Below are positions 8,602 through 37,736 of a stretch of DNA of 55,936 nucleotides, one piece after another. The notes under the pieces were generated by a model that worked only from the letters and a program-made list of their open reading frames with translations, searched no databases and was not told the DNA's origin. Position 1 is the stretch's first letter. Each line of letters opens with the position of its first letter. Source of the stretch: Clostridia bacterium (GTDB lineage: Bacteria; Bacillota; Clostridia; Christensenellales; Borkfalkiaceae); NCBI GenBank assembly GCA_017507005.1, contig JAFWBT010000011.1, forward strand, positions 1 through 55,936, written 5' to 3'. The position numbers and the translations under genes are program-made.

Positions 8602-8627
8602 GCTAAAAATTAAGGAGAATAAAGAAG

Positions 8628-11600
8628 ATGAAAAATCGGAGATTTTTATCTTTATTGTTGGGTTTGTTCATGGCGCAGAGTTTCTTAGCGTCTTGTGCAA
8701 AGCAATCGAACGAGATGGGCGCAAACAGCGCGTCGGACGTACCCCCCAAACAAGATATCACCGAACAGTTACCCGAATCGGAAACTGTCGTGGGTAACGA
8801 CAAGGGGAAATTCCAGACGCCGCAAACGCTTAGCGACAGCTTTTCCAGCTCTCTCACCAACAAGTATTTGAAAGAGATGGAATCGGATAGAATGCAATCG
8901 CTGGGGGTTTCCGCAAACGATTACGTCAACGTTATCGTTTCGCTCAAAGGCGACAGCCTTCTCGATCGGTATTTGAATTCCGAATTTGGCGGTGAAGTAG
9001 CCGAATACGTTCTCACGGACGGTAACGACGAACGTGTGGATATGTTGGCTATGCAAGAATCCGTGAGAAATAGCATTACGAAAATAGACAATAGGGCGGA
9101 ATATTCCTATTCGTACACGTTGGCGCAGAACGGCTTTGCCGCTCGCGTGCGTTACGGTGCGTTGGACGAAATCCGCCAGCTTCCCACCGTAAAGAACGTT
9201 GCTCTGTCCGAGCGTTATTCCGCGCCCGACGGCAACGAAATGCCGCTGTACGCGTCCGCAACGGGCGAAGCGGCTACCGGCGTTAAAAAGGATATGACGG
9301 CGGTAGGGGACGAATATAAAGGCGAAGGTACGTTGATTGCCGTAATGGATACGGCTCTCGACACCACGCACCCTGCTTTCTCGGGCGATTGTATCGATAT
9401 GACTCGCGCGAAGAAAGATTTGGAAAAAATCGACGCGATTTTGGACAGCACCGACGCTTACTATTGGAATTATCACTATAACGCATCTTCCGACACTGCG
9501 TTCTTGGAAGCGGAAAACGTATATGTGAACAATAAAGTGGTATTCGCATATGACTACGGTAACAAAGACGCGAACGTACTTCCGTACGCAGGCTTTGGTA
9601 ACGCGCTCGAACACGGTACGCATACCTCGGGTATCGCCGTAGGTTACGACGAAGCGGCTGGGTTCTCGGGTATCGCGCCCAACGCGCAGCTTGCGTTTAT
9701 GAAAGTGTTCTACGAAGACTACGTAAACGCAACCGTATATTCGGAAGATATTTATATCGCGGCGGCAATCGAAGACTCGATTATGCTCGGCGTTGACGCA
9801 ATCAACATCAGTTTGGGTGCGGCGCGCGGTTTCTCCGTAGATAAAACGTCCGAAAACTACATTTATCAATATTGTCGCTATGCCGACCTTGTCGGTATCA
9901 GTGTGCAGGCGTCCGTAGGTAACAGCTTTACGGCGGCTTTCGACGGCTTGCAGAGCGACTATCCTTCTATGATTATGCCCGATTACGGCGCGGTAAACTC
10001 GCCGGCTACGTTTGATAGCACGCTCGCAATCGGTAGCTATAACGGCACGAACATCGATCAGTATTACGCGCTCGTGAACGAGGGTACAGCGTCGGAATGC
10101 AAGGTGTACTACACCGATCCCGAAACGCAGGTATTCATTGACGAAATCGGTGCAGGTAAATATGATTGGGTATACGTAGAGGGCAACGGTACGTACGAAG
10201 AGATGGCGGCGGCGAAAGTTTCCGGCAAAATCGTGCTCGTACGTATGAACGATACGGTAGACGCCGTACAACAAATGCTCAACGCACAGCGTAACGGCGC
10301 AATCGCAATCTTGTTCGCAGACGCTACGTATTTAATGGTACGCACCGTTTCTTGCAAAATCGTCGATCCTCTGCCGTATGCAGGACTTTCCCTGATTGAC
10401 GCGGAAAAATTATTCACTCTCGGTAGCGGTAGTATCCGTTTCTCCGACGATCAAATCTGCTACAACTTGATGAGTGCTTTCAGCAGCTGGGGTTCGACGA
10501 ATACGTTGAACATCAAGCCCGAAGTCGTTGCGGTGGGCGGTAACGTATATTCCTCCCTCGTATCGGCTAGCATTTACGGTTCGTTGGCAGGCTATTATCC
10601 TTGCGACTACGGCTATCTGTCCGGTTCGTCCATGGCATCGCCCGCAGCGACCGCTTACGTTGCAAAGCTCCGTCAGGCGTTTGCAGAACGCTATCCCGAG
10701 CTGAACAGCAGAGAACTCACCTCGCTCGTATCGCATATCGTTATGAGTACGGCTGACACGCTCTCCGACCTCAACGGCGTGCTGTATTCGCCCCGTTATC
10801 AGGGCGCAGGCGCAATCAATTACGAGGCGGCTTTGACGGCGGACGAATATTTGTCCGTAACGGGCAGCAAAAAGCCCAAGATTGAGCTTGGCGAAGACGA
10901 GAAGAAAACGGGTGTTTACTTCTTGAATTTCAACATCAATAATATCGGCGATGAATCGCAGACGTACGCGCTTGATCTTAGCGTACTCACCGATTCCCTT
11001 TGCGCCGACGGCAAGACGATTTCTTTGGTTTCGCACGAGCTGGAAGGCTACGGCATCGAAGTATCCGTCAGCGGCGGTATTTACAACCGCGCAGAGAGCA
11101 GCATTACGGTAGCGGCAGGCACGAAAGCGTCCGTGGCGCTTCGTTTGACGCTCACCGAAGAAAATAAAGAATATCTCAATCAGTTTATGTACGGCACGTA
11201 CGTAGAAGGCTTCGTACGCGTTGTAGGCGAGGATTTGGAACATTCCGTACCTTTCCTTGCGTTCTACGGCGACTGGGAAGAAGCGCCTTTGATGGATAGC
11301 ACCGTATACGACGACGAAGAAGGCTACATTTTCGAATCGATGATTATCGGTACGTATAACGGCGGTTGGAACAGCGCTGTTCTCGGTGCGTATCCCTACG
11401 TTGTACCCGAAGGGTACGAGCCGATTGGCTACGACGAAAGATTCCTTTCCATCGGTTCGCAGACGGGCGGTTTCTATTCGATTTCGTCCTTGTACGTTGG
11501 TCTTATGCGTCATGCCGACCACGTAGAATTCTACATTATGGACTCGGCAACGGGTGAAATTTACGAATATACCAGCGTAGAACAGCTCGGTAGAGCGAGC

Positions 11601-16922: not shown

Positions 16923-16939
16923 GGGAGGTATAAATCAGT

Positions 16940-19900
16940 ATGAAGAAGACAGTAAAAAGAATATCCGTGCTTGCTCTCTCGGCGTTTATGGCCGTTTCGA
17001 CGGGGCTTGGCGTATGGCAGAGCAGTGCGGAGCTCACCGCGGCGCAAACGGTGGGAAATACGAACGCTGCTACGAGTAAACCCATTTCTCAAAGGGAATA
17101 CGACGTAGATTTTGAAAAAGCGGAAGGCGTAGACGTTTCCCAGCTTTTCATCGACAATTTCAACCCCGAAGTGGTCAAGACCAACCGTCTTGACCCTACG
17201 GAGGACTACGTAGCCGTAATCAATCTCGGCGGCGGTTCTTTGTCGGAAAAGGCGATTGAGGCGGGCATGAGCGTTGCGGAATATTCCGAAACGTTCGCGG
17301 CAAAAACGGCACGCGCGGCTATTTCCAAGGAAATTGACGCGTTCTTGACCAAGGTAAGCGCAATCGGCGTGGATGCGGAAGTCGTGTATCGTTACGATAC
17401 GTTGACGAAAGGCGTTGCGTTGCGCGCAAAAGGCGGCGATTTTGATAAAATTGCCGACATCAAAGAGGTAGAGAGCGTGGTGCTTTCCGAGCATTACGCC
17501 GCTCCCAAGGTGCTGGAAATTTCCAACGACACCAACGTATACGCAACGGGTATTTATAACACATCCGAAATCGATCCCGCGCTCCGCGGTAACGGTACGG
17601 CAATCGCCGTGCTCGATACGGGTACGGACGTACAACACCCCGCGTTCCAGACGAGTAACTTCTACGCAACGGAATATGCGTTGACGAGAGAGGATATCGA
17701 GTCGAGATTGCAGTATACGCGCGCAGCAGGCTTTGATAAGGAAGCAAGCGTAGAAAACGTATACAAGAGCGAGAAACTTCCTTTCGCGTTTGACTACGCA
17801 GACAAAGATTCTAACGTATATCCTTCCTATTCCTCGCACGGCTTGCACGTTGCAGGTATCATTGCAGGTAACCACACGGAAGTGGACGAAGCAACGGCTA
17901 CGTCCGATCCCGATTTGAAATTTGAATACGACGAGGACAAGGGTACGCACTATTTTGAAGGCGTTGTGCCCGATGCCCAAATCGTAACGATGAAGGTGTT
18001 CACGGACAACGTGGACGACGAAGCGCTTGGCGGTGCGGATACGGAAAATATCCTTGCAGCGCTGGAAGACGCGGTGACGATTGGCGTAGACATCATCAAT
18101 ATGTCGCTTGGTTCGTCGGCAGGGTTCTCCTCGTACGTAGACGAGTATATGGAATCGGTGTACGACGCAATCGAGAACGCAGGTATCAGCCTTGTTTGTG
18201 CGGCAAGTAACGACTATTCGTCGGGCTACGGCGGTGAAAACGGTACCAACCTTACGTCCGATCCCGACTCTGCTACGGTAGGCTCGCCTTCGACTTATCA
18301 CGCGGCTATCTCCGTTGCAAGTATCAACGGTCAGCGCGATCCGTATATGCTCGCGGAAGAAGAAACGATGGTATTCTTCACCGAAGCTACGGACGGTAAC
18401 TCTAATAAAATGGACTTCGTAGGGGACATCTTTACGAAGCTGAAAGCGGACGGCTTGATGCCTGCCGCATCCGAACGTTTTGAAATGCAATACGTCGTAA
18501 TTCCCGGTCTTGGCAGAAGCTATAACTATTCTGCTAATATCCGCAGCAAGTTGCAATCGCAGCCGAGTATTGCACTCGTACAGCGTGGTACGACGACGTT
18601 CGAAGAAAAGATGAAGATTGCGAAAGAAAACGGCGCAGTCGCAATCATGATTTACAACAACGTAGCCGGCAAAATCAGTATGACGATGGGCGCGAAGAAT
18701 AAGTCGGATATTATTCCCAGCTGCTCGATTACGATGGACGTCGGCAACCAAATGGTATCGGCGGCTACCGATTCGGTAGGTACGATTGTTTTGGATAAGA
18801 GCTTCTTGTCCGGTCCTTTCATGAGTGATTTCTCCTCGTGGGGCCCTACGCCTTCGCTCGAACTCAAACCCGAAATCACCGCATACGGCGGCAACGTAAC
18901 GTCGTCGGTTGCAGGTGGCTACGACGTTTACAGCGGTACGAGTATGGCAACGCCGAATATGGCGGGCGCGGTGGCGATTATCCGTCGTCATTTGAAGAAT
19001 TTGTATCCTGAAATGACGCCGCAGGAATTGGCGGCACGCACCTATCAGTTGATGATGAGTACGGCAGGTATCGTCCTTAACGAATACGGCGATCCGTACA
19101 GCCCCAGAAAACAGGGCGCAGGTATCGCGAACATTGAGGCGGCGCTTGCTTCGCAGTCGTATATCACGGTGAAAGACAAAGAAGGGAACGAATCGGCAAA
19201 GAGCAAGATTGAGCTTGGCGACGATCCCGACCGCAAAGGCGTTTACAATTTGCACTTTACGGTGAATAACGCGTCCGAAGAATTTGCTCGTTATCAGGTT
19301 GGCTGGTACGTTATGACGGAAACGGTATCCTCGGACGGCAAGACGGTGGCGGAAAAGAGTAATATCCTCGACGACGCAAACGTAAAAGTATGGATTAACG
19401 GCGAATTGAATACGCGTGGTCAATTTATGGTAATGGGCGGCGAGAGCGTATCGGTAACGATGCGAATTATCCTCTCCGACGCGAATAAAGAATTCCTCAA
19501 TAAATACTTTGAAAACGGTATGTACGTGGAAGGTTTTGCGACGCTCAAACAGATTTCCACGGGCTTGGCAAGCGGTGAAATGCACGATTTGACGTTGCCT
19601 TTCCTCGCGTTCTACGGCGATTGGACGGATGCGCCTATGCTCGATTATTCGTTGTACGAAATCGAAGCGAACAAAGCGGACGACTCTATTCCCGACGACG
19701 AAAAGCACGAAATTAAATTCTTCTCGACGACGCCTTACAGCAAGTACGGCGAGAAGTATATCCTGCCCATGGGTATGTATCTTTACAACTTGCCCGACGG
19801 CGCAGATCCCATCTACGCAACGGAAGATAAGGCTTCGCTGTCTATCTATCACGAAGCAACGCACGAAACGGCGTACGAATTCTATGCAGTATACGCGGGC

Positions 19901-22900
19901 TTGATGCGTGGTATGGCGGTATGTAACGTACAAATCGTCAACGAATACACGGGCGAAGTGGTATGGCAGGAAGTAAAGACGAACGTGGCGAAGGGCTACG
20001 CAAACGGCGGTTCGGCTCGTCCTGGGTTCATTGAAGTCGAGTTCAATCCTTATGAATTGAATTTGCCCAACAACACGAAATATCGTTTCTCGATGGAAGG
20101 CTATCTTGATTACGGTGACGGCACGCAAGGCAATAGCAATTCCTTCACGTTCACCTTTAAGACGGACTATGAAAGACCTACGCTCGTTGGTGTAAAACTG
20201 CGTTACGAAGAGTATATGGACGCAAACGAAGAAATTCAGACGCGTATCTATCTCGACGCGACGACGTTCGATAACAACTACGCGCAAGCAATGCTTCTTT
20301 GCTACGTAGACGCAACGAACACGGTGCAGTTGCTTACCGATTATATCACGCCGATTTATTCGGATAGAGCAGGTCAAACGGTGACCACCTCTATTGAGAT
20401 TACCGATTATTACGAAGATTATTTTGAAAAGCTGTATCTTCAGGTAGAAGACTACGCGATGAACTACGAAATTTACCAGCTGTCGTTGGACGAAGCGATT
20501 GCTTTCCCCGAACGTCTTGCGTTTGAAGAAAGCGAACTGCATCTCAACCTCAACGGCTCGGCAAAGCCCGATGTAATCGTAACCCCTGAAAAGACGCAGC
20601 GTTACGACCTCGTTTGGACGTCCAACAACGAAAACGTTGCCGTTGTAAAAGACGGTGAAATTTACGCAGTAGGCGTAGGGGAAACGTACGTTACCGTATA
20701 CGCTACGCGTTCGGACGTACTGTTAAAGCCCAGCGCGCGTATCAGGGTAATCGTAACGGACGACGTGGTGGAAACGCCCAAATATAAGGGTTTGAAATTC
20801 GATCTTATCGAAGATAAGAAAGAAACGGTGATCGATCCCACCAACAGAACGGTGGAAGTTCACCCCAACGAATATATTCCTTTCAAAATCGTCACCGATC
20901 CTTGGTATATGCCCGATATGAAGGTGGTGTGGAAGAGCTCCAACCCCTACATTGCAACCGTTGATGAAAACGGTATGGTACATACTCTTCGTGAAGGCTC
21001 GTGTACGATTAGCGCACAGCAGGTAAACGAAGACGGAACGCTCGGGTTCTTCTCGGCGAACTCCTATCTCGCGGTAGGTCCTGAATTCGTTATTAACAGC
21101 TATATTTTGGAAGAATATCACGGCGTAGGCGGCGACGTCGTTGTACCCGAAGAACTCAACTTCATGTATATTGATGAAGAGTGCTTTATGGACAACAAGA
21201 CGATTACGAGCTTCGTCGTTCCCGAAGACGTAATGGAGATTTGGGAAAAGGCGTTCTACGGCTGTACCGCGCTCGAATACGTGAAATTCCCTAAGAGCTT
21301 GACGCTCGTAGACGATTCGGCGTTTGAAGGCTGTACGTCGCTCGAAACGGTAGATTTGACCGATTCGCTCTCCATCATCTTCGCGCACCGTACCTTCTAC
21401 GGCTGTACGTCGCTGAAAGAAATCGTCAACGACGAACGTCTGACGGCGGTGTGGAACTATACGTTTGCTAACTGTTCCGCACTCGAAAGCTTGAATATTT
21501 CCAACCTCGTACAGGTAGGTAAATATGCGTTCTCCGGCTGTACGTCGCTGAAAGACCTTACGATGTCCCGTTATACGGTGATTGGCGAAGGTATGTTCTA
21601 CGGCTGTTCGAGCCTGAAAGAAGTGACCGTACCTGCTGAATATATCGGCAAGGATGCGTTCTACGCTTGTAGCAGTCTTGAAAAAGTCGTCTTGAACGGC
21701 AACACGATTGTCGGTGAGAGCGCGTTTAGAGGCTGTGTTGCGCTCAAACATCTGTATATGCCCGGTAGAATATACGAAATCCGCGAACGCGCGTTTGAAG
21801 GCTGTACGTCGATGCGTATCCTCGTATTGCCCGATTGCGAAGTGGAAGTAGGCAAAAACGCGTTCTTCCAGTGCAGCACGTTGGCTACGGTGGGTATCCG
21901 TGACAATACGCTGTTGAACTTCGGTGAGGCGTTCCGTGAATGCGGCGCTTTGAAGACGGTGGGCTATGCAACGCTCAGCTACTCGGAAGAAAGCGGCTAT
22001 GCAAACGTATTTGATGCGGACAAGAAAGAAACGAACAACTATTCGATTGAAAACAATATCGTTTACAATCGTGACAAAACTTCGCTTGTATTTGCTCCTA
22101 CGCTGGTAACCGAGGCAAACGTTCCCGCAACGGTAACGAAGATTGCGCCCGGCGCGTTCTACGGCAAGAGCAAGCTCACGTCCGTGACGTTGCCCGACGG
22201 CTTGAAAGAGATTGGCGATTACGCGTTCTCGTACACGGGTATCACGTCGCTGACAATCCCCGCGAGCGTAGAAAAAATCGGGGTAGGCGCGTTCTCCTAT
22301 TGCTTTACTTTGAAAGAAGTCATCTTCGAGGACGGCAGCGCGATTAAAGAAATTCCCGAAGGCTGCTTCAACAGCACGTATGCGCTCAAAGAAGTAGCGT
22401 TGCCCGTATCGGTAGAAACGATTGGCGCGTATGCGTTCGGCGCAGGCGCACTCTCGTCCTTCTACGCACAGGGCGGCGAAGCGGAAAAGGGCGTATTCAA
22501 CGGCGAAGGCTTGGCGGTGAAGAACATGGGCGAAGGCGCGTTCAGCGCTTGTAGCTTCGTGACCGTCGTACTTCCTACGACGCTCGAATCGCTGGGCACG
22601 AGCGCATTCTCGCTCAACCCGTTGTTGGAAGAAGTAACCTTCCGGTCCAACGTAACGATGGGGGACGCAGTGTTCTTCGATTCGACGAATTTGGAAACGG
22701 TGGTATTCCACGACGAAATGACGTCGATTGGTAATTACACCTTCGCGTCTACGGCAGGACAGCACTCCCTTAAATACGTAACGATTCCTACGCAGCTTAC
22801 GGAAGTTGGCGCGTACACCTTCTCCAACTGTTTCGTTCTGGAAGAACTGACGTTGCCTACGGGCGTTACGAAAGTTGGCGAATATGCGTTCTACGGCTGT

Positions 22901-25140: not shown

Positions 25141-25168
25141 ATAAAATGATATAAAGGAGATAAAAAAA

Positions 25169-27580
25169 ATGACAGAAACCAGCAAGAGAAAATCGCTGTT
25201 TGCGAAAATTCTGGCAGTAAGCCTTGCCTTGTCTATGGGCATGATGACGGCTTGCGGCGGCGGTGGTGAAAAAGCGAGCGTTGGCGGCGGGGAATCTCAG
25301 CAACCTAGCTCGGAAACGAGTGTACCTAATGAAGAACAGGGCAAGAAATACGACAATGAAACGACGCCCGTTACCTTCTCGGTAGGCGAACTCGATGGCG
25401 TATTCAACCCCTTCTATTCCACGTCGGCATACGACGGTGAAATCGCAGGTATGACGCAGATTAGTATGCTCAGCTCCGACGCAAACGGCGGCGTGGCTTA
25501 CGGCCGCGAAGAGCCCGTTATGACGTTGGATATGACGCAGACGATGTACGACGAAAACGGTGAAGTAACGGAAGACGGTACGTCCGACGGTACGACGGAA
25601 TACAAATTCCTCATCAAGAACGGTGTTAAAGATAGCAAGGGCTACGACATCACGATTGACGACGTCCTGTTCAATATGTACGTATATCTCGACCCCGTAT
25701 ACAACGGTTCTTCGACGATGTACTCCACGAAAATTCAGGGCTTGACGGCGTATAAGACGGGTAAAGAAGGCAGTAGCGAAGAAGAAGCGGCTGGCCTTAA
25801 CACGACGGCGCTTGCGAACGCGCGTGCAACGATTGTAAATATGGTACTGTATGCAAACGCAACGTATCTGCCCGATCAGTATCAGCATTCGTTCACGACG
25901 GAACAAATCGAAGAATACGAATCGTATATTGAAAAATTGCACGGTTTCTTTGAAGAAATGTTGCCTATGGATTGGAACGGCGCCGCAAACAGCATGGAAA
26001 CGGCGAAGGAAAACTATATCCTCGTTGACGGCGACGAATACCGTGAAAACAAAGTAAATCCCAGAACGTACGAAATTTCGCAGGTATGGGAATATTTCTG
26101 TATCAACCAAGGTCTTTGCCAGTACGTAGAGGTAAACGATAAGGATAAGACGGACGAAGAAACGCCTCGTTATTACGTAATCGTTGACACGGGTATCCAG
26201 AACGATATCGAAGAAGCAACGAAGAACCTTACCGATTCTGAAGCGATTTTGGAAGCAGGCAAGAAAATCTGTTTCGACGCAATGCGAGATGAATACAAGA
26301 CCTATGGTAAAGTGCAGGATTTGTGCTATTACTTCTCCGTAGGTAACGACCTCCTTGAATACCTCCGCGGTATCGAGCTGGAAAAGCTCACCTCGCAGGC
26401 AGACTCCGTCAAGAGCATCAGCGGTATTTCCACGGAAAGCGTGACGACGTTCAACGGCGTTACGTACGCAGAACCCCACGACGTATTGAAGATCGTTATC
26501 AACGGCGTTGACCCTAAGGCTGTTTGGAACTTTGCGTTCACCGTAGCGCCTATGCGTTATTATGCAAGCCAAGAACAGATTGATTTGTTTGACGGTGTTG
26601 AACACTTCGGCGTAGAAAAGAGCTCCACGAAATATCGTGACGATCAGCTTAAAAACGTAGAACGTATGGGTCTGCCCATCGGCGGCGGCGCGTATATGGC
26701 AAGCTCGGCAGACGGTTCGCCTGCAAAGACGAGAACGGATTTCAGATCCAAGAACGTTGTATACTATCAGCGCAACCCTTATTTCTACACGCTTGGTATC
26801 GACTCTCCTACGGCAACGGAAGCAGATTATGCAAAGAGTGAATCGGCAGCAGATACGCCTATCCACAACGCAAAGATTAAATATATCCGTTATCAGGTAG
26901 TTTCTTCTTCCAACGTTATGGGCGCAATGATTGCAGGCGAAATCGATTACAGCGGTGACATCTCGGCTAAACAGCAGACGATTAACCAGCTCAACGAATA
27001 TAGCTATCTCGACTACGCTCGTCAGCCGAACAACGGTTACGGTTATATCGGTCTTAACGCGAAATACGTACAAGATATCGAAGTTCGTCGTTTGATTATG
27101 TACGCTATGGACCGTGAACTTATCACGGACAGCTACTACACGGGCGGCTTGGGCAGCATTATCGAACGTCCTATGACGACCAACTCGTGGGCATATCCCG
27201 AAGGCGCAACGACGTATTACACGCAGGAATGGTTTATCGACCATTACGCAGAAGCGTACGGCATCACGTTGTCGCCTAGCGCAGATACGGCAGTATTCGT
27301 AGAAAACGCATTGAAAGCACTCGGCTACCAGAAATCGGGTGGTATCTATCAGAAGAAACTCTCCGATAACAAGACGACTTCCAAGCTTGAATACACCTTC
27401 ACGATTGCAGGGGAAACGAAAGACCACCCCGCATACGCAGTATTCGCAGCGGCAGCAGAAGATTTGAACAAAGCAGGTATGAAGATTTCCGTTAAGACGG
27501 ACGCGCAGGCTCTTTCCAAGCTCGCAAACGGTTCGCTTTCCGTATGGGCAGCAGCGTGGGGGCAGCGCAATCGACCCTGA
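25169..27580 (+). CDS. oppA: Oligopeptide-binding lipoprotein OppA, N-terminal part (frameshifted)
   Basis: A family 5 extracellular solute-binding protein (SBP_bac_5) feeding the Opp transporter encoded next. AAAGGAGAT precedes the ATG, and Cys29 (MMTAC) is the lipidation site. Family motifs include the N-terminal GELDGVFNPFYS and the later YIGLNAKY...DIEVRRLIMYAMDR. This frame stops after 803 residues because a run of five G (27558-27562) holds one base too many. With four G the protein reads on as AAWGSAIDPDLYQ into the next frame and would total about 922 residues. That is much longer than the usual 500-600, with an extra Tyr/Glu-rich segment near residues 170-420. A sequencing error, a real mutation or recoding are all possible. 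Confidence 0.85.
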   Translation: MTETSKRKSLFAKILAVSLALSMGMMTACGGGGEKASVGGGESQQPSSETSVPNEEQGKKYDNETTPVTFSVGELDGVFNPFYSTSAYDGEIAGMTQISMLSSDANGGVAYGREEPVMTLDMTQTMYDENGEVTEDGTSDGTTEYKFLIKNGVKDSKGYDITIDDVLFNMYVYLDPVYNGSSTMYSTKIQGLTAYKTGKEGSSEEEAAGLNTTALANARATIVNMVLYANATYLPDQYQHSFTTEQIEEYESYIEKLHGFFEEMLPMDWNGAANSMETAKENYILVDGDEYRENKVNPRTYEISQVWEYFCINQGLCQYVEVNDKDKTDEETPRYYVIVDTGIQNDIEEATKNLTDSEAILEAGKKICFDAMRDEYKTYGKVQDLCYYFSVGNDLLEYLRGIELEKLTSQADSVKSISGISTESVTTFNGVTYAEPHDVLKIVINGVDPKAVWNFAFTVAPMRYYASQEQIDLFDGVEHFGVEKSSTKYRDDQLKNVERMGLPIGGGAYMASSADGSPAKTRTDFRSKNVVYYQRNPYFYTLGIDSPTATEADYAKSESAADTPIHNAKIKYIRYQVVSSSNVMGAMIAGEIDYSGDISAKQQTINQLNEYSYLDYARQPNNGYGYIGLNAKYVQDIEVRRLIMYAMDRELITDSYYTGGLGSIIERPMTTNSWAYPEGATTYYTQEWFIDHYAEAYGITLSPSADTAVFVENALKALGYQKSGGIYQKKLSDNKTTSKLEYTFTIAGETKDHPAYAVFAAAAEDLNKAGMKISVKTDAQALSKLANGSLSVWAAAWGQRNRP

Positions 27581-27581
27581 C

Positions 27582-27938
27582 TTGTATCAGGTATATCATA
27601 AGTATTCGCAGGCGACCAGCGTAAACAACTGGGGCTATTCGACGATTCTCGATAGCAACAACAGCACGCTGTACAAGTCGGAACTTTCCATCATTGATAA
27701 ACTCTCGAAGAATATCGACCTCGCGCGCGCAACGCTCGATCAGGACGTTCGTGCAGACATCTATTCGGAAGCGTTGGACGATATTATGGAACTCGCAGTA
27801 GAGCTTCCTACCTACCAGCGTGTAAACCTGTTGGTATACAATTCGTCGAAGATAGATCCTGCGTCCTTGACGGCAAAGAACGAACTTACGGCGTACAGAG
27901 GGCTCATCGAAAAGATTTGGGAACTCGATTTACTCTAA
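27582..27938 (+). pseudogene. oppA: C-terminal fragment of OppA after the frameshift
   Basis: The last ~118 codons of the oligopeptide-binding protein, in the frame left after the extra G at 27558-27562. It carries the usual closing part of SBP_bac_5 proteins (a stretch with ATLDQDVRADIYSEALDDIM, then LPTYQRVNLLVYN). It has no ribosome binding site or credible start codon, and the nominal first codon is TTG inside a continuous coding stretch. It should be read as one gene with 25169-27580. The preserved reading of this tail argues for a sequencing artefact or a very recent mutation. Confidence 0.85.
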
Positions 27939-27952
27939 TGATATAATGATTT

Positions 27953-27980
27953 CGTCGCGGCAAACGTTTTTGCCGCGACG
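27953..27980 (+). terminator. 12-bp stem-loop between oppA and oppB
   Basis: A perfect 12-bp GC-rich inverted repeat (27953-27964 with 27969-27980) with a CGTT loop is followed by A-rich, not U-rich, sequence. Such hairpins between a binding-protein gene and its permease genes usually protect the upstream mRNA or partly stop transcription, giving more binding protein than permease. That role is inferred. Confidence 0.6.
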
Positions 27981-28001
27981 GAAAAAAAGGATGCTTTGTT
28001 T

Positions 28002-29000
28002 ATGGTTAAGTACATAGTAAAAAGACTGTTGATGTGCCTATTGATTTTGTTTGGCGTATCAATTATTATCTATTTCCTTGTACTGCTGATGCCTGCCGAT
28101 TACGTCGATCAGAAGTTTGCTTCGCAGATTGCGCAAGGCGCGATGGATAAAGCGGCTATTCAGGAAATGAAAGAAAAATATGCCCTGGCGGATAAATCCT
28201 TCGGGGGCATTCTCAACGGCTACGTTCGCTGGCTTGGCGGCGTATGCACGGGGGACTTGGGCAGATCGTTCAAATACGATATGCCCGTTACCACCGTTAT
28301 CGTAGAGAACATGGGTATCTCGTTCGGTATCTCGTTCGTAGCGCTCATTTTGCAGTTCGTCATTGCAATTCCTTTGGGGATTAAGGCGGCTTGCAATCAG
28401 TACGGCAAGATTGACTACACCGTTACGGTGTTGACGATGATGGGTATTTCGTTGCCCACATTCTTCTTGGCTGCGCTCCTTGTTCAGGTGTTCTCTATCA
28501 ACCTCGGTTGGTTCCCCGTAAACGGCTTGGTTACGGCAAATTTGCCCGTAGATACCAGCTCGTTTGAAAGATTTTTGGATGAATTGTGGCATTTGGTATT
28601 GCCTATGACGACGCTCGTTATTCTTTCGATTGGCGGTCTTATGCGTCATACGCGTACGAATATGCTGGAAGTGCTCAACGCCGACTATATCCGTACGGCG
28701 CGCGCAAAGGGTTTGTCCGAACGTACCGTCGTGTATAAGCACGCGTTCAAGAACACGATGATTCCCATCGTCACCATGACGGCAGGGATTATCCCCAGCT
28801 TGTTCGGCGGTGCAATGATCACGGAAACGGTGTTCGGTATTCCCGGTATCGGTAAAATGGCGTACGACGCGCTCAAAATTGGGGACGTGCCTTTCGTAAT
28901 GGGCTATAACATGTTCCTTGCAATCTTGACGGTAATCGGCACGCTGTTGTCCGATCTTATGTATATGTTGGTTGACCCTCGTGTCAAGCTGACGAAATAA
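28002..29000 (+). CDS. oppB: Oligopeptide ABC transporter permease OppB
   Basis: A 332-residue inner-membrane permease of the peptide/nickel class (BPD_transp_1). It has an N-terminal membrane span (VKRLLMCLLILFGVSIII), a periplasmic-type loop, and five further spans from about residue 100. The EAA-type cytoplasmic motif that contacts the ATPases is present (ADYIRTARAKGLSE). I chose the ATG at 28002 because the protein then begins MVKYIVKRLL like its family. A TTG six bases upstream is closer to the AAGG at 27987-27990 and is a possible alternative. It pairs with OppC, whose start is 12 bases after its stop. Confidence 0.92.
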   Translation: MVKYIVKRLLMCLLILFGVSIIIYFLVLLMPADYVDQKFASQIAQGAMDKAAIQEMKEKYALADKSFGGILNGYVRWLGGVCTGDLGRSFKYDMPVTTVIVENMGISFGISFVALILQFVIAIPLGIKAACNQYGKIDYTVTVLTMMGISLPTFFLAALLVQVFSINLGWFPVNGLVTANLPVDTSSFERFLDELWHLVLPMTTLVILSIGGLMRHTRTNMLEVLNADYIRTARAKGLSERTVVYKHAFKNTMIPIVTMTAGIIPSLFGGAMITETVFGIPGIGKMAYDALKIGDVPFVMGYNMFLAILTVIGTLLSDLMYMLVDPRVKLTK

Positions 29001-29012
29001 GGAGGCGGTCTG

Positions 29013-30173
29013 ATGGAAAAAGAAAATGAAATGATCGAAGAGATTGTAAATTCGGCCGCTGAAAACGTAACGGAAACGACGGCGCAGCAGGAAACCGCAA
29101 TGGCAGAGGCTGCTGCACAAACGGTGGAAGAAATGGCAACGGAAGCGGAAGAAAAGGAAGAAAAAGAAGGCTTCCTTTCCGATAATATCCGTGTATTGTC
29201 CCCGGGCAGAATGGTTATGAAACGGTTTTTCCGTTCCAGACTTTCCCTCGTAGGGCTGGTGATTATCGTAGGCTTGTTCCTGTTCTCGTTCGTAGGTCCC
29301 GTATTCTCGAGCTGGGGCGAAAAACAAACGGATACTTCGGGCGGCGCGCCTATCCAGGCAGTCACGGGTATCGAGTTCGTTGATCCCAGCGCAACGGATA
29401 GGGTGATTGAGGCGTATATCGTTACGATTGAAACCCCTGAACTCAACAGAAACCAGACGAAAGCCACGGCAGACCATTGGCTTGGTACGGACGATATGGG
29501 TATGGATATCCTCACCCGTCTGATGTACGGCGGCAGAATTTCGCTGACGCTCGGCTTTATCGTCGTTATTTTGGAAACGATTATCGGTATTATTTTAGGC
29601 GGCCTTGCTGGATATTTCGGCAAATGGGTAGATATGATTGTCATGCGTGTCGTGGATATTCTAAACTGTATCCCATCGCTACCTATTATGCTCATCATCA
29701 GCGTCGTACTCGACTCTCGAGGGGTTGACGGGCGGTATAAGATATACTATATGATGGTCATGATGACGGTGTTGGGCTGGTCGGGTATTGCCCGTCTTGT
29801 CCGCGGTCAAATCCTTATGCTGCGCGAGCAGGAATATATGGTAGCCTCGGAGGCGAGCGGTATTCCCGTATGGCAGCAAATCTTCAAACATCTTGTGCCG
29901 AACATTATGCCACAGCTCATCGTAACGATGACGTTGGGCTTGGGTTCGATTATTCTGACGGAAGCAACGCTCGGGTTCTTAGGGCTTGGCGTAGAATTCC
30001 CCAGCGCATCTTGGGGCACGATGATTGAGGCAGGCGCAAATCCCGACGTTTTGCGTAGCGGCTATTGGAATATGTGGATACCGGCAGGTATCTGTATCGT
30101 TATGGCAGTACTCGGGTTCAACTTTATCGGGGACGGTCTGCGTGACGCGTTCGACCCGAAAATGAAGAGGTGA
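29013..30173 (+). CDS. oppC: Oligopeptide ABC transporter permease OppC
   Basis: A 386-residue second permease of the Opp transporter, with AAGGAGGCGG upstream. The family core begins near residue 60 (SPGRMVMKRFFRSRLSLVGL, OppC_N) and the permease domain near 160, with the LGTDDMGMDILTRLMYG motif and an EAA loop (YMVASEASGIPVWQQIF). An unusual Glu/Ala-rich, strongly acidic extension of about 55 residues precedes the first span and would lie in the cytoplasm. Otherwise the length and motifs are ordinary. It is followed after 3 bases by oppD. Confidence 0.92.
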   Translation: MEKENEMIEEIVNSAAENVTETTAQQETAMAEAAAQTVEEMATEAEEKEEKEGFLSDNIRVLSPGRMVMKRFFRSRLSLVGLVIIVGLFLFSFVGPVFSSWGEKQTDTSGGAPIQAVTGIEFVDPSATDRVIEAYIVTIETPELNRNQTKATADHWLGTDDMGMDILTRLMYGGRISLTLGFIVVILETIIGIILGGLAGYFGKWVDMIVMRVVDILNCIPSLPIMLIISVVLDSRGVDGRYKIYYMMVMMTVLGWSGIARLVRGQILMLREQEYMVASEASGIPVWQQIFKHLVPNIMPQLIVTMTLGLGSIILTEATLGFLGLGVEFPSASWGTMIEAGANPDVLRSGYWNMWIPAGICIVMAVLGFNFIGDGLRDAFDPKMKR

Positions 30174-30176
30174 GCT

Positions 30177-31481
30177 ATGGCGGAAAATAAACACGTACAT
30201 CGCCTTTCGGCGAAAGAATCGCGAGCAATCGCCAAAGAAAACCTCAAAATCACTAAGCAATACGAAAAGCTGAAAAAGCGTAAATACGTTCCCGAAGAGG
30301 AATACCGCGCAGAGATGAAAGATGAGGGGAATATCCTCGAAATTGAAGATTTGCACACCTATTTCTTCACGGACGTAGGCGTTGTAAAAGCGGTAAACAG
30401 CGTTTCGTTCTCTATCCCGCAGGGCGCGACGGTCGGCGTTGTCGGCGAGAGCGGTTGCGGTAAGAGCGTTACCTCGCTGTCCGTTATGGGGCTGGTGCAA
30501 GGCCCGACGGGACAGGTCGTTGGCGGTGAAATCCGTTTCAAGAGCGAGGTGCTGAAAAAGGACGAAAAGGGGAAATATATCCCCATTTACGAACGCGACG
30601 AAAACGGCGAGCTGATTGTAGAATCGGAAACGATTGATAAGAAAACGGGCGAGAAGGTATATCGTTACAAGCAAAAACGTGACGAAACGGGCGGCTTGAT
30701 GTTTGAAAAAGAACCCAAGGTATACAACCTCGTTAAAACACCTCGCAGTGAAATGAGCAAAATCCGCGGCAGGGAAATCGCTATGATTTTCCAAGAGCCC
30801 ATGACGTCGCTCAATCCCGTATTCACCATCGGCGAACAGCTGAACGAAGTGTATTGCTTGCACAACCCCGGCGCAACGACGGAGGATGCGAAAAACCGTA
30901 CGTACGAGATGCTCAATCTCGTTGGGATTATTCCCGATAACGTATACAAGCGTTACCCACACGAATTGTCGGGTGGTATGCGTCAAAGAGTCGTGATTGC
31001 AATGGCTCTGATGTGTAATCCACGCTTGATTATCGGTGACGAACCGACGACGGCGCTGGACGTTACGATTCAGGCGCAAATTTTGGAATTGCTTCGTAAT
31101 ATTAAGACGAAGATTAACGGTTCAATTATGTTAATCACGCACGACCTCGGCGTTATCGCGGAAATGGCAGATTACGTCGTCGTTATGTATGCGGGTAAAG
31201 TAATTGAAACGGGTACGGCAATGGAAATTTTCTGCAATCCCTTGCATCCGTATACGATAGGTTTGCAAAAGAGTAAGCCCGTCGTAAACCAAAATCAAGA
31301 CAGATTGTATAGTATTCCCGGCAACGTACCAAACCCCATCGAAATGCCTACGCATTGCTATTTTAAAGACCGTTGCAATCGGGCTTGCGAAAAATGTAAC
31401 GGGGAATATCCCGGTTACGTACAGGTATCGCCCACGCATAAGGTCGCTTGCTATTTGTACGAGGAGGGCGTAAATGAGTAA
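30177..31481 (+). CDS. oppD: Oligopeptide ABC transporter ATP-binding protein OppD
   Basis: A 434-residue ATPase energising peptide uptake. Walker A is GESGCGKS (~residues 89-96), the Q-loop is MIFQEPMTSLNPV, the signature is LSGGMRQR and Walker B is LIIGDEPTTALD. The C-terminal oligo_HPY part (HPYTIGLQKSKP) and a Cys cluster (CYFKDRCNRACEKC) are present; family members often carry an iron-sulfur site there. It is about 90 residues longer than typical OppD. There is an N-terminal extension of ~45 residues and a charged insert of ~60 between Walker A and the Q-loop (KKDEKGKYIPIYERDENG and beyond). The stop overlaps the next start by 8 bases. Confidence 0.92.
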   Translation: MAENKHVHRLSAKESRAIAKENLKITKQYEKLKKRKYVPEEEYRAEMKDEGNILEIEDLHTYFFTDVGVVKAVNSVSFSIPQGATVGVVGESGCGKSVTSLSVMGLVQGPTGQVVGGEIRFKSEVLKKDEKGKYIPIYERDENGELIVESETIDKKTGEKVYRYKQKRDETGGLMFEKEPKVYNLVKTPRSEMSKIRGREIAMIFQEPMTSLNPVFTIGEQLNEVYCLHNPGATTEDAKNRTYEMLNLVGIIPDNVYKRYPHELSGGMRQRVVIAMALMCNPRLIIGDEPTTALDVTIQAQILELLRNIKTKINGSIMLITHDLGVIAEMADYVVVMYAGKVIETGTAMEIFCNPLHPYTIGLQKSKPVVNQNQDRLYSIPGNVPNPIEMPTHCYFKDRCNRACEKCNGEYPGYVQVSPTHKVACYLYEEGVNE

Positions 31482-32526
31482 CGTAATCGACGAACAGAAA
31501 ACGGACGTATCAGCCGTTACGGAAAACAAGCCTATTCTCGAAGTGCAAGGCTTGAAAAAGTATTTCCCTGTGGAAAAGGACTTTTTCGGTAAACCGACGA
31601 GATTCCTTCGCGCGGTAGACGACGTATCGTTCACACTGCAACGCGGCAGAACGATTGGTATCGTAGGGGAATCGGGTTGCGGTAAAACCACGATGGGCAG
31701 AAGCGTATTAAAGCTGCACGACATTACGGGCGGACGTATTTTCTTCGACGGGACGGATATTACCGATCTTTCCCGCGCGCAGATGCGCCCGTATCGTAAG
31801 CGTATGCAAATTATTTTCCAAGACCCGTATTCTTCCCTTTCGCCGCGTTTGAATATCGGCGAAATTATCGGGGAAGCGGTGAAGGTGCACGGTATCGTGC
31901 CGCCTTCGCAGTATCGTGAATACGTATGCGAAGTAATGCAAAAATGCGGTTTGCAATCGCATTTCTACGATCGTTACCCGCATGAATTTTCGGGTGGTCA
32001 AAGACAGCGTATCTGTATTGCGCGCGCTATCGCGTTGCAGCCGGAGCTGATTATTTGCGACGAACCCGTTTCTGCGCTCGACGTGTCTATTCAGGCGCAG
32101 ATTATCAACCTGTTGAAAGATATGCAAGAAACGATGAACATTGCTTACGTGTTCATTTCGCACGATCTTTCCGTCGTTGAGCATATTTCCGACGACGTAG
32201 GGGTAATGTATTTGGGGAACATGGTGGAGAAAGGCCCGAAAAAGGACATTTTCGCAAACCCTCTGCACCCGTATACGCAGGCGCTGTTTAGCGCAATCCC
32301 GTATCCCGATCCTCGTGTTAAGATGCACCGCCGCGTGCTGACGGGGGACATTCCTAGTCCTTCCAACCCGCCCGCAGGCTGTAAATTCCACACGCGTTGC
32401 GATCGTTGTATGGAGATTTGTAAGACGATACCGCCCGAAACGCGTGAGATTGAGCCAGATCATTTTGTAGCTTGTCATCTCTACGATTCGGAAAATTCCA
32501 ATAACGGGAACGGTCATGAAGAATAA
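31474..32526 (+). CDS. oppF: Oligopeptide ABC transporter ATP-binding protein OppF
   Basis: A 350-residue partner ATPase of OppD, of normal length. Walker A is GESGCGKTT, the Q-loop is IIFQDPYSSLSPR, the signature is FSGGQRQRICIARA and Walker B is LIICDEPVSALD. The C-terminal oligo_HPY region with HPYTQALFSAIP and the Cys-containing CKFHTRCDRCMEIC is complete. The start overlaps oppD by 8 bases and the stop overlaps the following small gene by 11 bases, so the group is translated as a unit. Confidence 0.93.
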   Translation: MSNVIDEQKTDVSAVTENKPILEVQGLKKYFPVEKDFFGKPTRFLRAVDDVSFTLQRGRTIGIVGESGCGKTTMGRSVLKLHDITGGRIFFDGTDITDLSRAQMRPYRKRMQIIFQDPYSSLSPRLNIGEIIGEAVKVHGIVPPSQYREYVCEVMQKCGLQSHFYDRYPHEFSGGQRQRICIARAIALQPELIICDEPVSALDVSIQAQIINLLKDMQETMNIAYVFISHDLSVVEHISDDVGVMYLGNMVEKGPKKDIFANPLHPYTQALFSAIPYPDPRVKMHRRVLTGDIPSPSNPPAGCKFHTRCDRCMEICKTIPPETREIEPDHFVACHLYDSENSNNGNGHEE

Positions 32527-32782: not shown

Positions 32783-32799
32783 ATTTGGAGTATTCGTTT

Positions 32800-35700
32800 A
32801 TGAAATTTAAAACTATGAAAAAAATAATGTTGTGGTCGTTGGCGTGTTCGATGCTTGGCAGCGCTCTGTTGAGCGTAGGTAGCGGCGCGGCGGCTACACG
32901 GACGATACAGGCAGAGGAAAAGACGGCAAACGTCGCGGTTTCCTCTGCGTCTTTCACTTTGGACGAACCGACGACGTTGTATCCTGCCACGCAAGAGGGC
33001 AGTTTTTCGGATACGCACGCGGCGTCGCAAGAGAAGTATTTATATTCCCGTATCGGCTTGGAAAAGGACGGCGTGTCCGTTCGTGATATCACCAAAGGCG
33101 CAACGGACAAGCACCGTTCGCGTATCGTCGTTATTGACAGCGGCGTAAATTACGAACACGAAGATTTCTTGGCTGCAGACGGCTCGGTGCGGTTTAGTCC
33201 GCTCAGCTACAACGTTACGATGCGAAAGACGGTGGAGCAGGCAGGGTATAGCATACTTTCCGATAGCGCAATCGTTGACGGACACGGTACGCAGGTGTGC
33301 GGTCCGATTTTTGCCGTGGGCGATAACGGAAAAGGTATTGCAGGGCTTGCCGAGGACGCCGAGCTTATATTCATCAAAGTAACGCCGACGAGTGAGGGCG
33401 GCTACGACGGGAACGAGATTAGTTCGGCGCTCGAATACGCGGCAACGTTAAAAGCAGACGTTGTCAATATGTCTATGGGTAGCTATCTTGCGAGCAATCC
33501 GTACGCGTCGAGTATCCGCAAAATCCGCAACAGCGGCGCGTTGATAGTGGCGGCGGCAGGGAACGTTTCTACGAGTAATACGCATTATCCGTCCGCCGAT
33601 CCTAACGTCATTGCCGTGGGCGCATTTGCAAATATGCTGAATTTGTCCACGCAGGCAACGCAGTATTCGTTGGCAAACTATTCCACGTACGGCGACCATA
33701 ACTTAACGCTTTGCGCGCCCGGTACGTTCTATACGACGAAAATGGACGGCACGTACGGCGCGTCGAACGGCACGTCTATCGCAACGCCTATTGTTTCGTC
33801 GGCAATTGCGTTGTATCGTTCGCTGTATCCCGATTCCACTGTGGACGAAGTGACGGAAGCGTTGATAGCGTCCACGAGCGATCACGGCGATTACGGCAGA
33901 GATTATAAATTCGGCTACGGCGGCTTGAATATTTACGATTTCCTTTTCGGTAAGAAAGGGGAAGTGACGTTCGATTACGGCAACGGCACGAGTGTAAAAC
34001 GCACGGTGGTCGAGGGCAAGCCTTTGCAGGAATATCCTTTCCCTGCGGCAACGGATGCGCCCGAGGGTAAGGAATTTGCAGGCTGGTGGCTGGATAAAGC
34101 AGGCACTTTGCCCATTAAATATTACCAAGACGTATTGCCCATCGGCGCGACGGTGTACGCAAAATGGCAAAAAGTAGGCGCGGACGGCTTGTCGGACGGC
34201 GGCGGTAAAGACGGCGGCGCGTTGGACTATACGATTAACCGTAACGGTAAACTGGTCGTAAAAGGCTATTACGGCAACGGCGAACGCCTGATATTGCCTA
34301 AAAAGCTCGCTGTTTCCGGCGCGGAATACGAAGTGTCGGAAATCGGTGCGCGCGCATTTCAGCGCAACAGCACGCTGAAAAAGATTGTTTTGCCCTCGTC
34401 GGTGACGGCGGTGCGCGAATACGCGTTCTCGAACAGAACGTATGAATATTTCTTCTTGCCGTCGAGCATAACGTCGGTGGAAAATCACGCTTTCCAGAAC
34501 GCGAAAGGCACGTTGTATATGCAAGGCAACGGCAATGGTTTCGTGTCGGGTTGGAATTCGGGCGCGAAGCTCGATATTGCCATGGGCACGCAAGAAGTGA
34601 CGGTGAAAGAGGGTATGGAGCTTGTTCGTTCCAACGGCACGTACACGTTGCTTTCCTATGACGGCAATGCGCGTGAACTGACGCTGACGGCGGAATATCC
34701 TATCGTGGCGATTAAGGCGTCTGCCTTTGAAGGCAATGAAACGCTGGAAAAACTACTTGCGCCCGACGTTGCGAAGATTGAAACGCAGGCGTTCTACGGC
34801 TGTACGGCGTTGACGCAGGTGGAAATACCGCAGGCGGCAAGCCTTGCAGACAAAGCCTTTTACGGTTGTACGGCGTTGACACATATCACCTTGCCTGCGT
34901 CGCTGATGAGCCTTGGCAATTCGGCGTTTGCCGATTGTAGCGAGCTCGTTCGTGTCACGGTGGAAAAGGGCTGTGATTTGACGACGATTGGAGACTACGC
35001 GTTCGAGCGTTGTTCGGCGTTGGAAACAATCGATTTACAAAACGCAACGGCGTTGACGTACGTGGGAACGAACGCGTTTAACGGCGCAGAAAACGTTTTC
35101 ACTGCGTATATTCCCGATTCCGTACAGACGCTCGGCTATAACGCGTTTGGCGGTATGAAACAGCTCACGTCTATCCGTTTGCCGTTCTTGGGCAGAGGGG
35201 TAGAGGAAACGTATACTCACCTTGGTTACGTTTTCGGCGCGAGCAATAAAGAATTACAATCGTCCGTTATTCCCGAAAATCTCACCTACGTTTTCGTTGG
35301 CGGCGACGTTGAAAAAGGCGCGCTGGACGGCGTGACGGGCTTGCAGATTTTTGCAGACGGAAACTGTCCTTCCGCAACGGGTTGCACCGTGTACGAGGGG
35401 GGCATGTACGCGTTTATTCAAATTTACGCAGGGGATATCCTTGCAGGTATGTTGGGTGGCGCGACGGAAGAAACGCTGTCGATTGGCGTTTTGAACGCGG
35501 CGTATCGTATGCCGCAGGGCTATTCGTTTACGGCTTGGGAAACGGGCTTGGATACGACGAAATTGCCTGCAAAAAACGGCGTGACGGCGTGGAAAATCGT
35601 CAATGAAAAGAATACCTATACGGTTAAATTTTACAACGAGAGCGGTTCGCTCATCAGCAGTGAAACGTACGCTTACGGCGAAGAAGTCGTCGTGCCGAGC

Positions 35701-37092
35701 GCACCGGAAAAAAGCTCGAATTCCCGTTACGATTACGTATTCGTCGGTTGGGGCAAACCAGTAACGGTGGCGGTTGCCGACGCGGCGTATAAGGCAACGT
35801 ACGAACAAGTGACAAGGCTGTATACGGTTTCGTTCTATATGGACAACGGCGATTTGATTGCGGAAATGGAATACGCTTACGGCGAAACGCCCGTAGCGCC
35901 CGCCGTGCCAAATCGAGCTATCGACGCGCAGTATTACGATAAATTCGCAGGCTGGAATAAATCGATTGCCACCGTTGCAGGCGACGCGAGCTATACGGCA
36001 AAATTCACCAAAGAATACGTGCAGTACATTGTTCGTTTCGCGTACGAGGACGGTACGGTATTCGCAGAAAACAGCTATCGTTACGGTCAGCAAATCACCG
36101 CGCCCTCGACAGCGCGCGCCACGGACGAGCGTTATCACTACACCTTTACGGGCTGGGATAAGACGTTTGAAACGGTGACGAAAGAAGTTACGTATAAGGC
36201 AAAATACGAAAAGACGCCCGTGGAATACACGGTGAAATTCGTAGACCATAACGGCGGAGTAATCAAAACGGAAACGTTGCATTACGGCGATATGCCTACA
36301 CCGCCCGAAACGCCTGCGCGTAACGATGCGGAAGAGGGCTATCGTTATCTGTTCCTCGGCTGGGGCAGTGACGTCGTTGCGGTGACGGAAAGCGTTACGT
36401 ATACGGCGACGTATAAATTAGTATCCACGAAAATCGTCATCACTTTCCTCAATTATGACGGTACGGTGCTTTCGCAGGCGGAATATATGCCTGGGGCGAC
36501 GGTCGTTGTGCCCGAAAATCCCGAACGTAACGTGTCCAGCAAAGCGTATTATTACGATTTCAAGGGCTGGGATAAGGAAGTGACCACCGCGGAAGAAACG
36601 GTGACGTACACGGCTATGTACGAGCGTACGTATTATGAATTTACCGTGCGTTTCTTGGATTATGACGATACGGTGTTGCTCATTGATACGTCCCTGCGTT
36701 ACGATTCGACGGTGACGCCGCCCGAAGTGCCCGAACGCTACGGCTATGAGTTCGTCGGTTGGGATAAGGAAGTGGTAAAGGTGACGGCTGACGCCACCTA
36801 CAAAGCGGTGTACGAGGAAGTGGAAATGCCCGAATCCTCGGACGATCCTTTCCAATCGAGCGAGCCTTCCGACGGCACGACGGACAGCGAATATTCCTAT
36901 GACGATTACGAGTCTTCGGATATAGAAACGTCGGAAAATTCGTCGGCGAACACCTCGCACGAATCCTCCAAAGACGTCATCTCAAACGCTTCCAAGCCCG
37001 AAAAGAAAGGCTGTGGCAGCAGCTTGGGCTTTGGCGCAATCGGTATGCTTGCGATAGCTTGTGCCGTAGTGTTTAAGAAAAAAGAGGACTAA
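32800..37092 (+). CDS. S8 subtilase with LRR, multiple InlB-type repeats and Cys-containing C-terminal tail
   Basis: A 1,430-residue secreted serine protease. I prefer the ATG at 32800 (GGAG at 32785-32788) over the one at 32773, which would overlap the previous gene and lengthen the signal peptide. The S8 triad is intact: Asp113 (VVIDSGVN), His162 (DGHGTQV) and Ser326 (NGTSIATP). An InlB-type repeat lies near 390-450 and LRR_5 repeats near 480-830. Six or more tandem ~70-residue repeats follow (~930-1350), each ending in GW-k-v-T--vtY-A-Y, a mucin-binding or InlB-like beta unit. The end is a Ser/Asp/Glu linker, KKGCGSS, a hydrophobic span and a Lys/Glu tail, like the 2,501-residue protease upstream. 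It is the last gene of the protease/Opp run. Confidence 0.87.
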   Translation: MKFKTMKKIMLWSLACSMLGSALLSVGSGAAATRTIQAEEKTANVAVSSASFTLDEPTTLYPATQEGSFSDTHAASQEKYLYSRIGLEKDGVSVRDITKGATDKHRSRIVVIDSGVNYEHEDFLAADGSVRFSPLSYNVTMRKTVEQAGYSILSDSAIVDGHGTQVCGPIFAVGDNGKGIAGLAEDAELIFIKVTPTSEGGYDGNEISSALEYAATLKADVVNMSMGSYLASNPYASSIRKIRNSGALIVAAAGNVSTSNTHYPSADPNVIAVGAFANMLNLSTQATQYSLANYSTYGDHNLTLCAPGTFYTTKMDGTYGASNGTSIATPIVSSAIALYRSLYPDSTVDEVTEALIASTSDHGDYGRDYKFGYGGLNIYDFLFGKKGEVTFDYGNGTSVKRTVVEGKPLQEYPFPAATDAPEGKEFAGWWLDKAGTLPIKYYQDVLPIGATVYAKWQKVGADGLSDGGGKDGGALDYTINRNGKLVVKGYYGNGERLILPKKLAVSGAEYEVSEIGARAFQRNSTLKKIVLPSSVTAVREYAFSNRTYEYFFLPSSITSVENHAFQNAKGTLYMQGNGNGFVSGWNSGAKLDIAMGTQEVTVKEGMELVRSNGTYTLLSYDGNARELTLTAEYPIVAIKASAFEGNETLEKLLAPDVAKIETQAFYGCTALTQVEIPQAASLADKAFYGCTALTHITLPASLMSLGNSAFADCSELVRVTVEKGCDLTTIGDYAFERCSALETIDLQNATALTYVGTNAFNGAENVFTAYIPDSVQTLGYNAFGGMKQLTSIRLPFLGRGVEETYTHLGYVFGASNKELQSSVIPENLTYVFVGGDVEKGALDGVTGLQIFADGNCPSATGCTVYEGGMYAFIQIYAGDILAGMLGGATEETLSIGVLNAAYRMPQGYSFTAWETGLDTTKLPAKNGVTAWKIVNEKNTYTVKFYNESGSLISSETYAYGEEVVVPSAPEKSSNSRYDYVFVGWGKPVTVAVADAAYKATYEQVTRLYTVSFYMDNGDLIAEMEYAYGETPVAPAVPNRAIDAQYYDKFAGWNKSIATVAGDASYTAKFTKEYVQYIVRFAYEDGTVFAENSYRYGQQITAPSTARATDERYHYTFTGWDKTFETVTKEVTYKAKYEKTPVEYTVKFVDHNGGVIKTETLHYGDMPTPPETPARNDAEEGYRYLFLGWGSDVVAVTESVTYTATYKLVSTKIVITFLNYDGTVLSQAEYMPGATVVVPENPERNVSSKAYYYDFKGWDKEVTTAEETVTYTAMYERTYYEFTVRFLDYDDTVLLIDTSLRYDSTVTPPEVPERYGYEFVGWDKEVVKVTADATYKAVYEEVEMPESSDDPFQSSEPSDGTTDSEYSYDDYESSDIETSENSSANTSHESSKDVISNASKPEKKGCGSSLGFGAIGMLAIACAVVFKKKED

Positions 37093-37728: not shown

Positions 37729-37736
37729 GTGAAAGT

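Follow-up and report, generated by a model that had tools for sequence, protein, structure and literature searches.

A stretch of 55,936 nucleotides from a Clostridia bacterium (contig JAFWBT010000011.1, hereafter the window) carries a run of genes in which giant subtilases (S8 proteases) with leucine-rich repeats (LRRs) stand next to an oligopeptide-type (Opp) importer. Comparison of genome sequences showed that the protease, a lipoprotein, the binding protein OppA, the importer subunits OppB, OppC, OppD and OppF, and a small membrane protein (smTM) are encoded together and co-inherited in several families within one order of uncultured Clostridia. We propose, with a probability of roughly three in four, that the locus is a surface-proteolysis and peptide-import operon that would scavenge protein at the cell surface. 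The protease family, which is cell-envelope-proteinase-like, and the AppA-like binding protein fit protein digestion and peptide import.

Proteases and opp genes are encoded and inherited together

Two profiles, one of OppA (13 rows) and one of the protease region (10 rows), were each run on a sample of 297 genomes from the window's order, with at most three candidates scored per genome, such that further copies may be missed. OppA matches above 600 bits comprised 64 copies in 63 of the 297 genomes. When OppA matches down to 338.9 bits and S8 matches down to 453.6 bits were supplied to the linkage count, 55 of the 64 copies (55 of 63 genomes, with eight family codes and 18 genus codes) had an S8 match within 14 kb on the same strand of the same contig; in one of these genomes, G117, that match scored only 458.7 bits. 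The protease was upstream of OppA in 50 linked cases and downstream in five. The first-pass annotation, which was made from the window alone, had suggested looking for the same gene order in relatives, and the neighbourhood proved to be conserved there. The usual order is S8-LRR protease (~2500 aa), lipoprotein, oppA, oppB, oppC, oppD, oppF and smTM. In an independent set of 47 loci found by OppA alone in a named genome collection, the protease was on the fetched stretch in 34, and several of the protease-less loci were cut by contig ends. The stretches compared numbered 82 with the window included: 46 (L031-L076) were obtained via OppA alone, 23 were chosen for known linkage and the rest were own-genus or missed cases.

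The OppA copies missed by the linkage count were a second copy in the window's own genome (G000:C5), those of two genomes without a strong S8 match (G291 and G129), and six with the S8 match on another contig (G235, G189, G255, G265, G145 and G234). The S8 match of G255 and both genes of G145 are near a contig start, and the OppA of G234 is split, with one part (344.7 bits) on the S8 contig. Seven of 64 strong S8 matches had no OppA within 25 kb.

Two other explanations were rejected. Chance adjacency would, by our own arithmetic, be expected in about 1 of 100 genomes (one S8 gene, a 1.6-Mb genome, 15 kb, same strand), versus the 55 of 63 observed. Conservation of general gene order only was also set aside: 29 of 36 loci gave a downstream flank gene, and these genes fell into 24 clusters. 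Upstream flanks were partly conserved, as 20 of the 36 loci gave a flank gene and these formed four clusters. Linkage throughout the class was not supported: among 291 genomes sampled class-wide, scores above 600 bits to either profile occurred only in G000, G041 and G088, all from the window's family. In the same sample, G335 reached 597.4 bits with the protease profile, and G356, G445 and G510 gave weaker matches to both profiles on different contigs.

The proteases also diverge together with the binding protein. Across 40 loci selected for holding all genes, the protease and OppA distance matrices were correlated with r = 0.93, a value reached by none of 2000 permutations and to which shared species history contributes. 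Correlations within the importer were no tighter, at 0.87 (OppA-OppB) and 0.81 (OppB-OppD).

In six of 57 proteases (L043, L044, L047, L049, L062 and L071; 2759-3017 aa), the protease is fused to the lipoprotein, with the C-terminal part matching the lipoprotein profile at E-values of 5e-45 to 2e-98. Read by eye, a charged stretch and then another membrane segment come after the membrane segment of the protease, and five of the six fusions no longer have the lipoprotein-position cysteine. We read the topology as protease outside, two membrane passages and lipoprotein domain outside. Such fusions are a strong sign of joint function. Together, linkage, co-divergence and fusions support, at the level of an evolutionary unit, the first-pass proposal that proteases and opp genes form one system.

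The proteases, the lipoprotein and the importer

All three proteases of the window (S8a, S8b and S8c) contain subtilase domains by Pfam and LRR_5 repeats. In the ten-row alignment, which includes S8a and S8b, the catalytic columns D97, H171 and S539 and the oxyanion asparagine N295 are invariant; the three catalytic motifs are present in 52 of 57 proteases examined. A PA domain (PF02225) is inserted within the S8 match of S8b (E-value 8.6e-12), is weak in S8a (23.1 bits, just below the cut-off of 23.9) and was not reported for S8c by the Pfam search. A C-terminal hydrophobic segment is found in 47 of 55 uncut proteases. That of S8b scores 1.82, marginally below the threshold of 1.9, and S8a has none (0.49), with an N-terminus that is lipobox-like by eye. 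A loose LPxTG-like sorting motif occurs in the last 60 residues of three of 57 proteases; S8a and S8b are not among the three, and S8c was outside this set. By sequence, S8b is nearest to C5a-peptidase/cell-envelope proteinases, and among solved structures C5a peptidase and chemokine protease C come closest. Neither S8b (236.8 bits) nor S8a (192.2 bits) reached the 1400-bit cut-off of the NCBIfam model NF040553 (SGO_0316 family serine peptidase). For S8c, the ATG at 32800 is a likelier start than an upstream GTG; hence the gene does not overlap that of smTM. A protease at the position of S8c is found only in the window, L031 and L032.

The lipoprotein has 232 residues in the window, L031 and L032 and 354-627 in the other loci listed. 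The smTM proteins form a family of ~85-residue uncharacterised membrane proteins with a DDGRTIADMN-like motif (window, L035, L041, L054, L076, L121 and L149). The window's copy, which gave no Pfam or NCBIfam match at an E-value of 0.01, has a charged N-terminal part, the motif D-D-x-R-T-x-A-D-M-N and a single C-terminal hydrophobic segment. Of 39 smTM matches, taken after exclusion of nine weak ones from the 48 listed, 33 lie beside opp genes of this branch.

Importer domains above cut-off are PF00496, two PF00528, PF12911, two PF00005 and two PF08352, the last on two ATPases with an oligo_HPY tail. By this domain set (family-5 binding protein, two permeases, two ATPases), the importer is of the Opp type and is predicted to transport oligopeptides. 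OppB and OppC score highest with Opp4B and Opp4C, yet the NCBIfam Opp4 cut-offs were missed: 263.3 of 450 bits for Opp4B, 314.2 of 350 for Opp4C and 65.6 of 650 for Opp4A, the last with an 803-residue piece of a broken oppA. OppA is oversized, at ~870 residues, and its best match by sequence and by modelled fold is AppA with a nonapeptide; another match is lactococcal OppA with long peptides. In the model, a mostly helical insert occupies about residues 193-410. The first-pass annotation had listed oppA in the run. The gene is present, but its frame is broken near 27560: the 803-residue frame ends at 27580 and the C-terminal part lies in another frame, at 27582-27938. As the copies in L031 and L032 are intact, the break is either an assembly error or recent decay of the window copy.

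An additional, expanded copy in the window

The ten consecutive same-strand genes that the first-pass annotation placed at 8628-37092 are present and are separated by -11 to 63 bases (Table 1), a spacing compatible with co-transcription. Its block start at 8628, however, omits two genes for LRR surface proteins, LRR1 and LRR2. In genome G322 (loci L147, L032 and L148), the order LRR1, LRR2, S8a, S8b, lipoprotein, oppABCDF, smTM and S8c is identical across all 12 genes, and L031, whose contig starts inside S8a (by eye), matches the window from there on. The downstream neighbours differ between the window (ferrous-iron genes), G322 and G321 (other genes). Because G322 keeps all 12 genes in this order although its downstream flank is another, LRR1 and LRR2 belong to the block, which probably starts upstream of 8628. 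Base 1 of the contig falls just before LRR1, and the upstream edge is outside the sequence; the conserved unit is 46-37092 or longer.

Table 1. Features of the block in the window
Feature	Coordinates	Strand	Evidence or remark
LRR1, BspA-type leucine-rich-repeat surface protein, 1446 aa	46..4386	+	LRR_5 E 5e-77; same position and order in G322
Hairpin without U tract, LRR1/LRR2 gap	4404..4448	+	-27 kcal/mol, z -6.9; very stable
LRR2, LRR and InlB B-repeat surface protein, 1311 aa	4561..8496	+	domain search; same position in G322
Hairpin without U tract, gap before S8a	8545..8601	+	-34.4 kcal/mol, z -5.1 (stretch 8530-8627); very stable
S8a, giant subtilase, 2764 aa	8628..16922	+	weak PA, Fn3-like and LRR regions
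S8b, giant subtilase-LRR protease, 2501 aa, widely conserved opp partner	16940..24445	+	catalytic motifs intact
Lipoprotein with InlB B-repeat domain, 232 aa	24442..25140	+	
oppA, oversized family-5 binding lipoprotein, frame broken	25169..27938	+	
Hairpin without U tract, oppA/oppB gap	27950..27983	+	-25.5 kcal/mol, z -4.5; strong
oppB, permease	28002..29000	+	Pfam/NCBIfam profiles
oppC, permease	29013..30173	+	Pfam/NCBIfam profiles
oppD, ATPase	30177..31481	+	Pfam/NCBIfam profiles
oppF, ATPase	31474..32526	+	Pfam/NCBIfam profiles
Small membrane protein (smTM), 88 aa	32516..32782	+	
S8c, third subtilase, LRR and InlB B-repeats, hydrophobic C-terminus	32800..37092	+	
Intrinsic-terminator-like site closing the block	37130..37162	+	site at 37143-37157, then T run

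The window locus is the second opp locus of its genome, with an OppA 41% identical to that of the genus-typical copy on contig C5. By gene content it is an additional, expanded version that stands next to the genus-typical operon and has three proteases and two further LRR proteins. The window, L031 and L032 formed one clade in both trees, one of 58 loci and one of 54 proteases. The C5 opp copy groups with G041, as does a solitary protease on contig C9 of the same genome. This giant subtilase-LRR gene (L129, 9908 onward) is apparently a former partner of the C5 operon. In G321, a protease gene in two frames precedes the second opp copy. Genus-typical opp copies adjoin histidine-biosynthesis-like genes: in L150 these look like hisA/hisF/hisH by eye, and the neighbours in L128 and L130 have similar gene lengths.

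Between the window and L032, importer identities are 93.1% (OppB), 85.5% (OppD), 82.9% (OppF), 81.4% (OppC) and 77.8% (OppA). The other proteins range from S8b (77.5%) through S8a (70.1%, cut by the stretch end in L032), the lipoprotein (65.9%), LRR1 (61.7%) and smTM (60.2%) to S8c (56.6%) and LRR2 (52.5%). Divergence of the LRR proteins and S8c fits a surface adapting to changing targets; that of smTM needs no such reason.

Of 78 loci, 36 had a structured oppA/oppB gap (z below -2); these counts rest on single-base shuffles, the 78 include loci whose gaps, shorter than 20 or longer than 400 bases, were left unfolded, and two pairs of loci have identical gap sequence (L033/L135 and L051/L118). 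The claim that a U-tract terminator occurs only after S8c held for the site itself. The internal absence is consistent with, and weakly indicated by, a scan of 24300-37900, in which 14 terminator-like sites were found versus 17.1 expected by chance. Promoter scans were near chance, with 7 sites versus 5.6 expected in 4300-8800 and 20 versus 15.5 in 24300-37900; 8800-24300 was outside both scans.

Downstream of the block, at 37200-37786, the palindrome GTTAGCnnnnGCTAAC occurs five times with no or one mismatch. Allowing up to two mismatches, the window holds six copies versus 1.99 expected, a number that two shuffles reached. The copies surround two perfect sigma-70-type promoters (37223 and 37403), an open reading frame (37482-37694) that we take to be FeoA-like, feoB and a gene for a DtxR-type repressor; the palindrome is likely an iron-dependent operator. 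A 6S RNA above the Rfam gathering score lies on the minus strand at 48008-48188.

Proposed function, alternatives and known systems

In the model we favour, anchored proteases would cut extracellular protein to oligopeptides beside the membrane, OppA would capture long peptides and OppBCDF would import them. The LRR/InlB proteins might dock substrate or matrix, and the oppA/oppB hairpin could keep the binding protein in excess over the permease. Exceptions in the window's own genus weigh against this model. In seven of the eight other species examined from that genus (G291, G021, G011, G004, G022, G023 and G016), the stretch carries lipoprotein-oppABCDF without an upstream S8 gene, these stretches being complete or cut by a contig end; only that of G007 has one. 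The C5 opp copy of the window's own genome likewise has no adjoining S8 gene. Degrader, binder and importer are kept together across lineages, in line with the logic of polysaccharide-utilisation loci, except in most examined species of the window's genus.

We considered whether the locus serves peptide signalling, with a subtilase maturing a secreted pro-peptide that Opp re-imports. Subtilases and Opp serve signalling circuits elsewhere, as in the Bacillus Phr systems, the structural matches of OppA include B. subtilis OppA with a PhrE-derived pentapeptide, and the operon contains a small gene, smTM. However, in the window, gaps of at most 63 bases inside the run leave no room for a pre-peptide gene except in the 131 bases before S8a; for the relatives, unlabelled frames were listed only from 70 aa upwards. 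Moreover, smTM combines a charged N-terminus with a membrane segment at its C-terminus, and it occurs behind opp genes that lack an adjoining S8 gene as well. We regard signalling as unlikely.

A second alternative gives the C5a-peptidase-like enzymes and the LRR/InlB proteins a role in adhesion or defence, with host or competitor proteins as their targets and peptide import as a by-product. The closest solved relatives of the protease and the fast divergence of outward-facing proteins (LRR2 and S8c versus OppB, above) would agree with such a role. Against it are the physical coupling to one particular importer, the co-divergence with its binding protein and the nutritional role (PMC2827410) of lactic-acid bacterial cell-wall proteinases, which by sequence are in the same family as these solved relatives. 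This host-facing role seems quite unlikely. A non-peptide cargo of the importer (metal chelate, opine or oligosaccharide), combined with a protease that acts in maturation or shedding of the locus's own surface proteins, is very improbable, since OppA best matches peptide-bound AppA and also lactococcal OppA, and a metal or sugar importer leaves the protease partner unexplained.

Returning to protein scavenging, we lean narrowly towards a broader reading. The locus would be a unitary and undescribed protein-utilisation locus, consisting of an LRR-armed proteinase, a docking lipoprotein that is sometimes fused as a two-helix membrane protein, a helical-insert OppA, OppBCDF and an accessory membrane protein. 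It may be ancestral to a large part of this order of uncultured gut Clostridia, with the 12-gene, three-protease version a second form that spread to different genomic sites in the window's lineage. No earlier description of such a locus was found in the literature searched, which included few subscription papers and not bioRxiv.

Several known systems resemble parts of the locus. The closest in logic is lactic-acid bacterial PrtP (lactocepin) plus Opp, in which a surface subtilase digests protein outside and Opp takes up oligopeptides, as is predicted here, and both the protease family and the binding-protein fold match those of the window. Unlike PrtP, the window-type protease carries BspA-type LRR arrays, and in place of LPXTG it mostly ends in a hydrophobic segment. 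The lactic-acid bacterial OppA has ~540 residues versus ~870 here, where smTM also accompanies the importer. In L. lactis SK11, prtP/prtM and oppABCDF2 with pepO2/pepF2 are on different plasmids (PMC2827410), whereas window-type protease, lipoprotein and importer form one locus.

The streptococcal C5a peptidase/chemokine protease C/SGO_0316 family shares the protease architecture over ~700-780 residues; S8b differs in its score far below the family cut-off (236.8 of 1400 bits) and in its added LRR arrays. We know of no opp partner for these enzymes, whose gene order was not searched. For the importer, the Bacillus subtilis AppA system gives the best sequence and fold match to OppA, and OppB and OppC score best, below cut-off, with NCBIfam Opp4; the helical insert of the OppA model sets it apart from both.

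Bacteroidota polysaccharide-utilisation loci combine a surface degrader, binding lipoproteins and a dedicated importer in one locus, and such carbohydrate loci are a standard predictor of gut bacterial diet. No comparable genetic unit for protein was found in the literature searched. If our model is correct, protein feeding could be read from the genomes of uncultured Clostridia through the protease-importer operon, and the fused lipoprotein, the OppA insert and smTM would be candidates for coupling surface proteolysis to peptide uptake. Compared with polysaccharide-utilisation loci, the locus would use a Gram-positive ABC importer and no SusCD, with a protease in place of the glycosidase.

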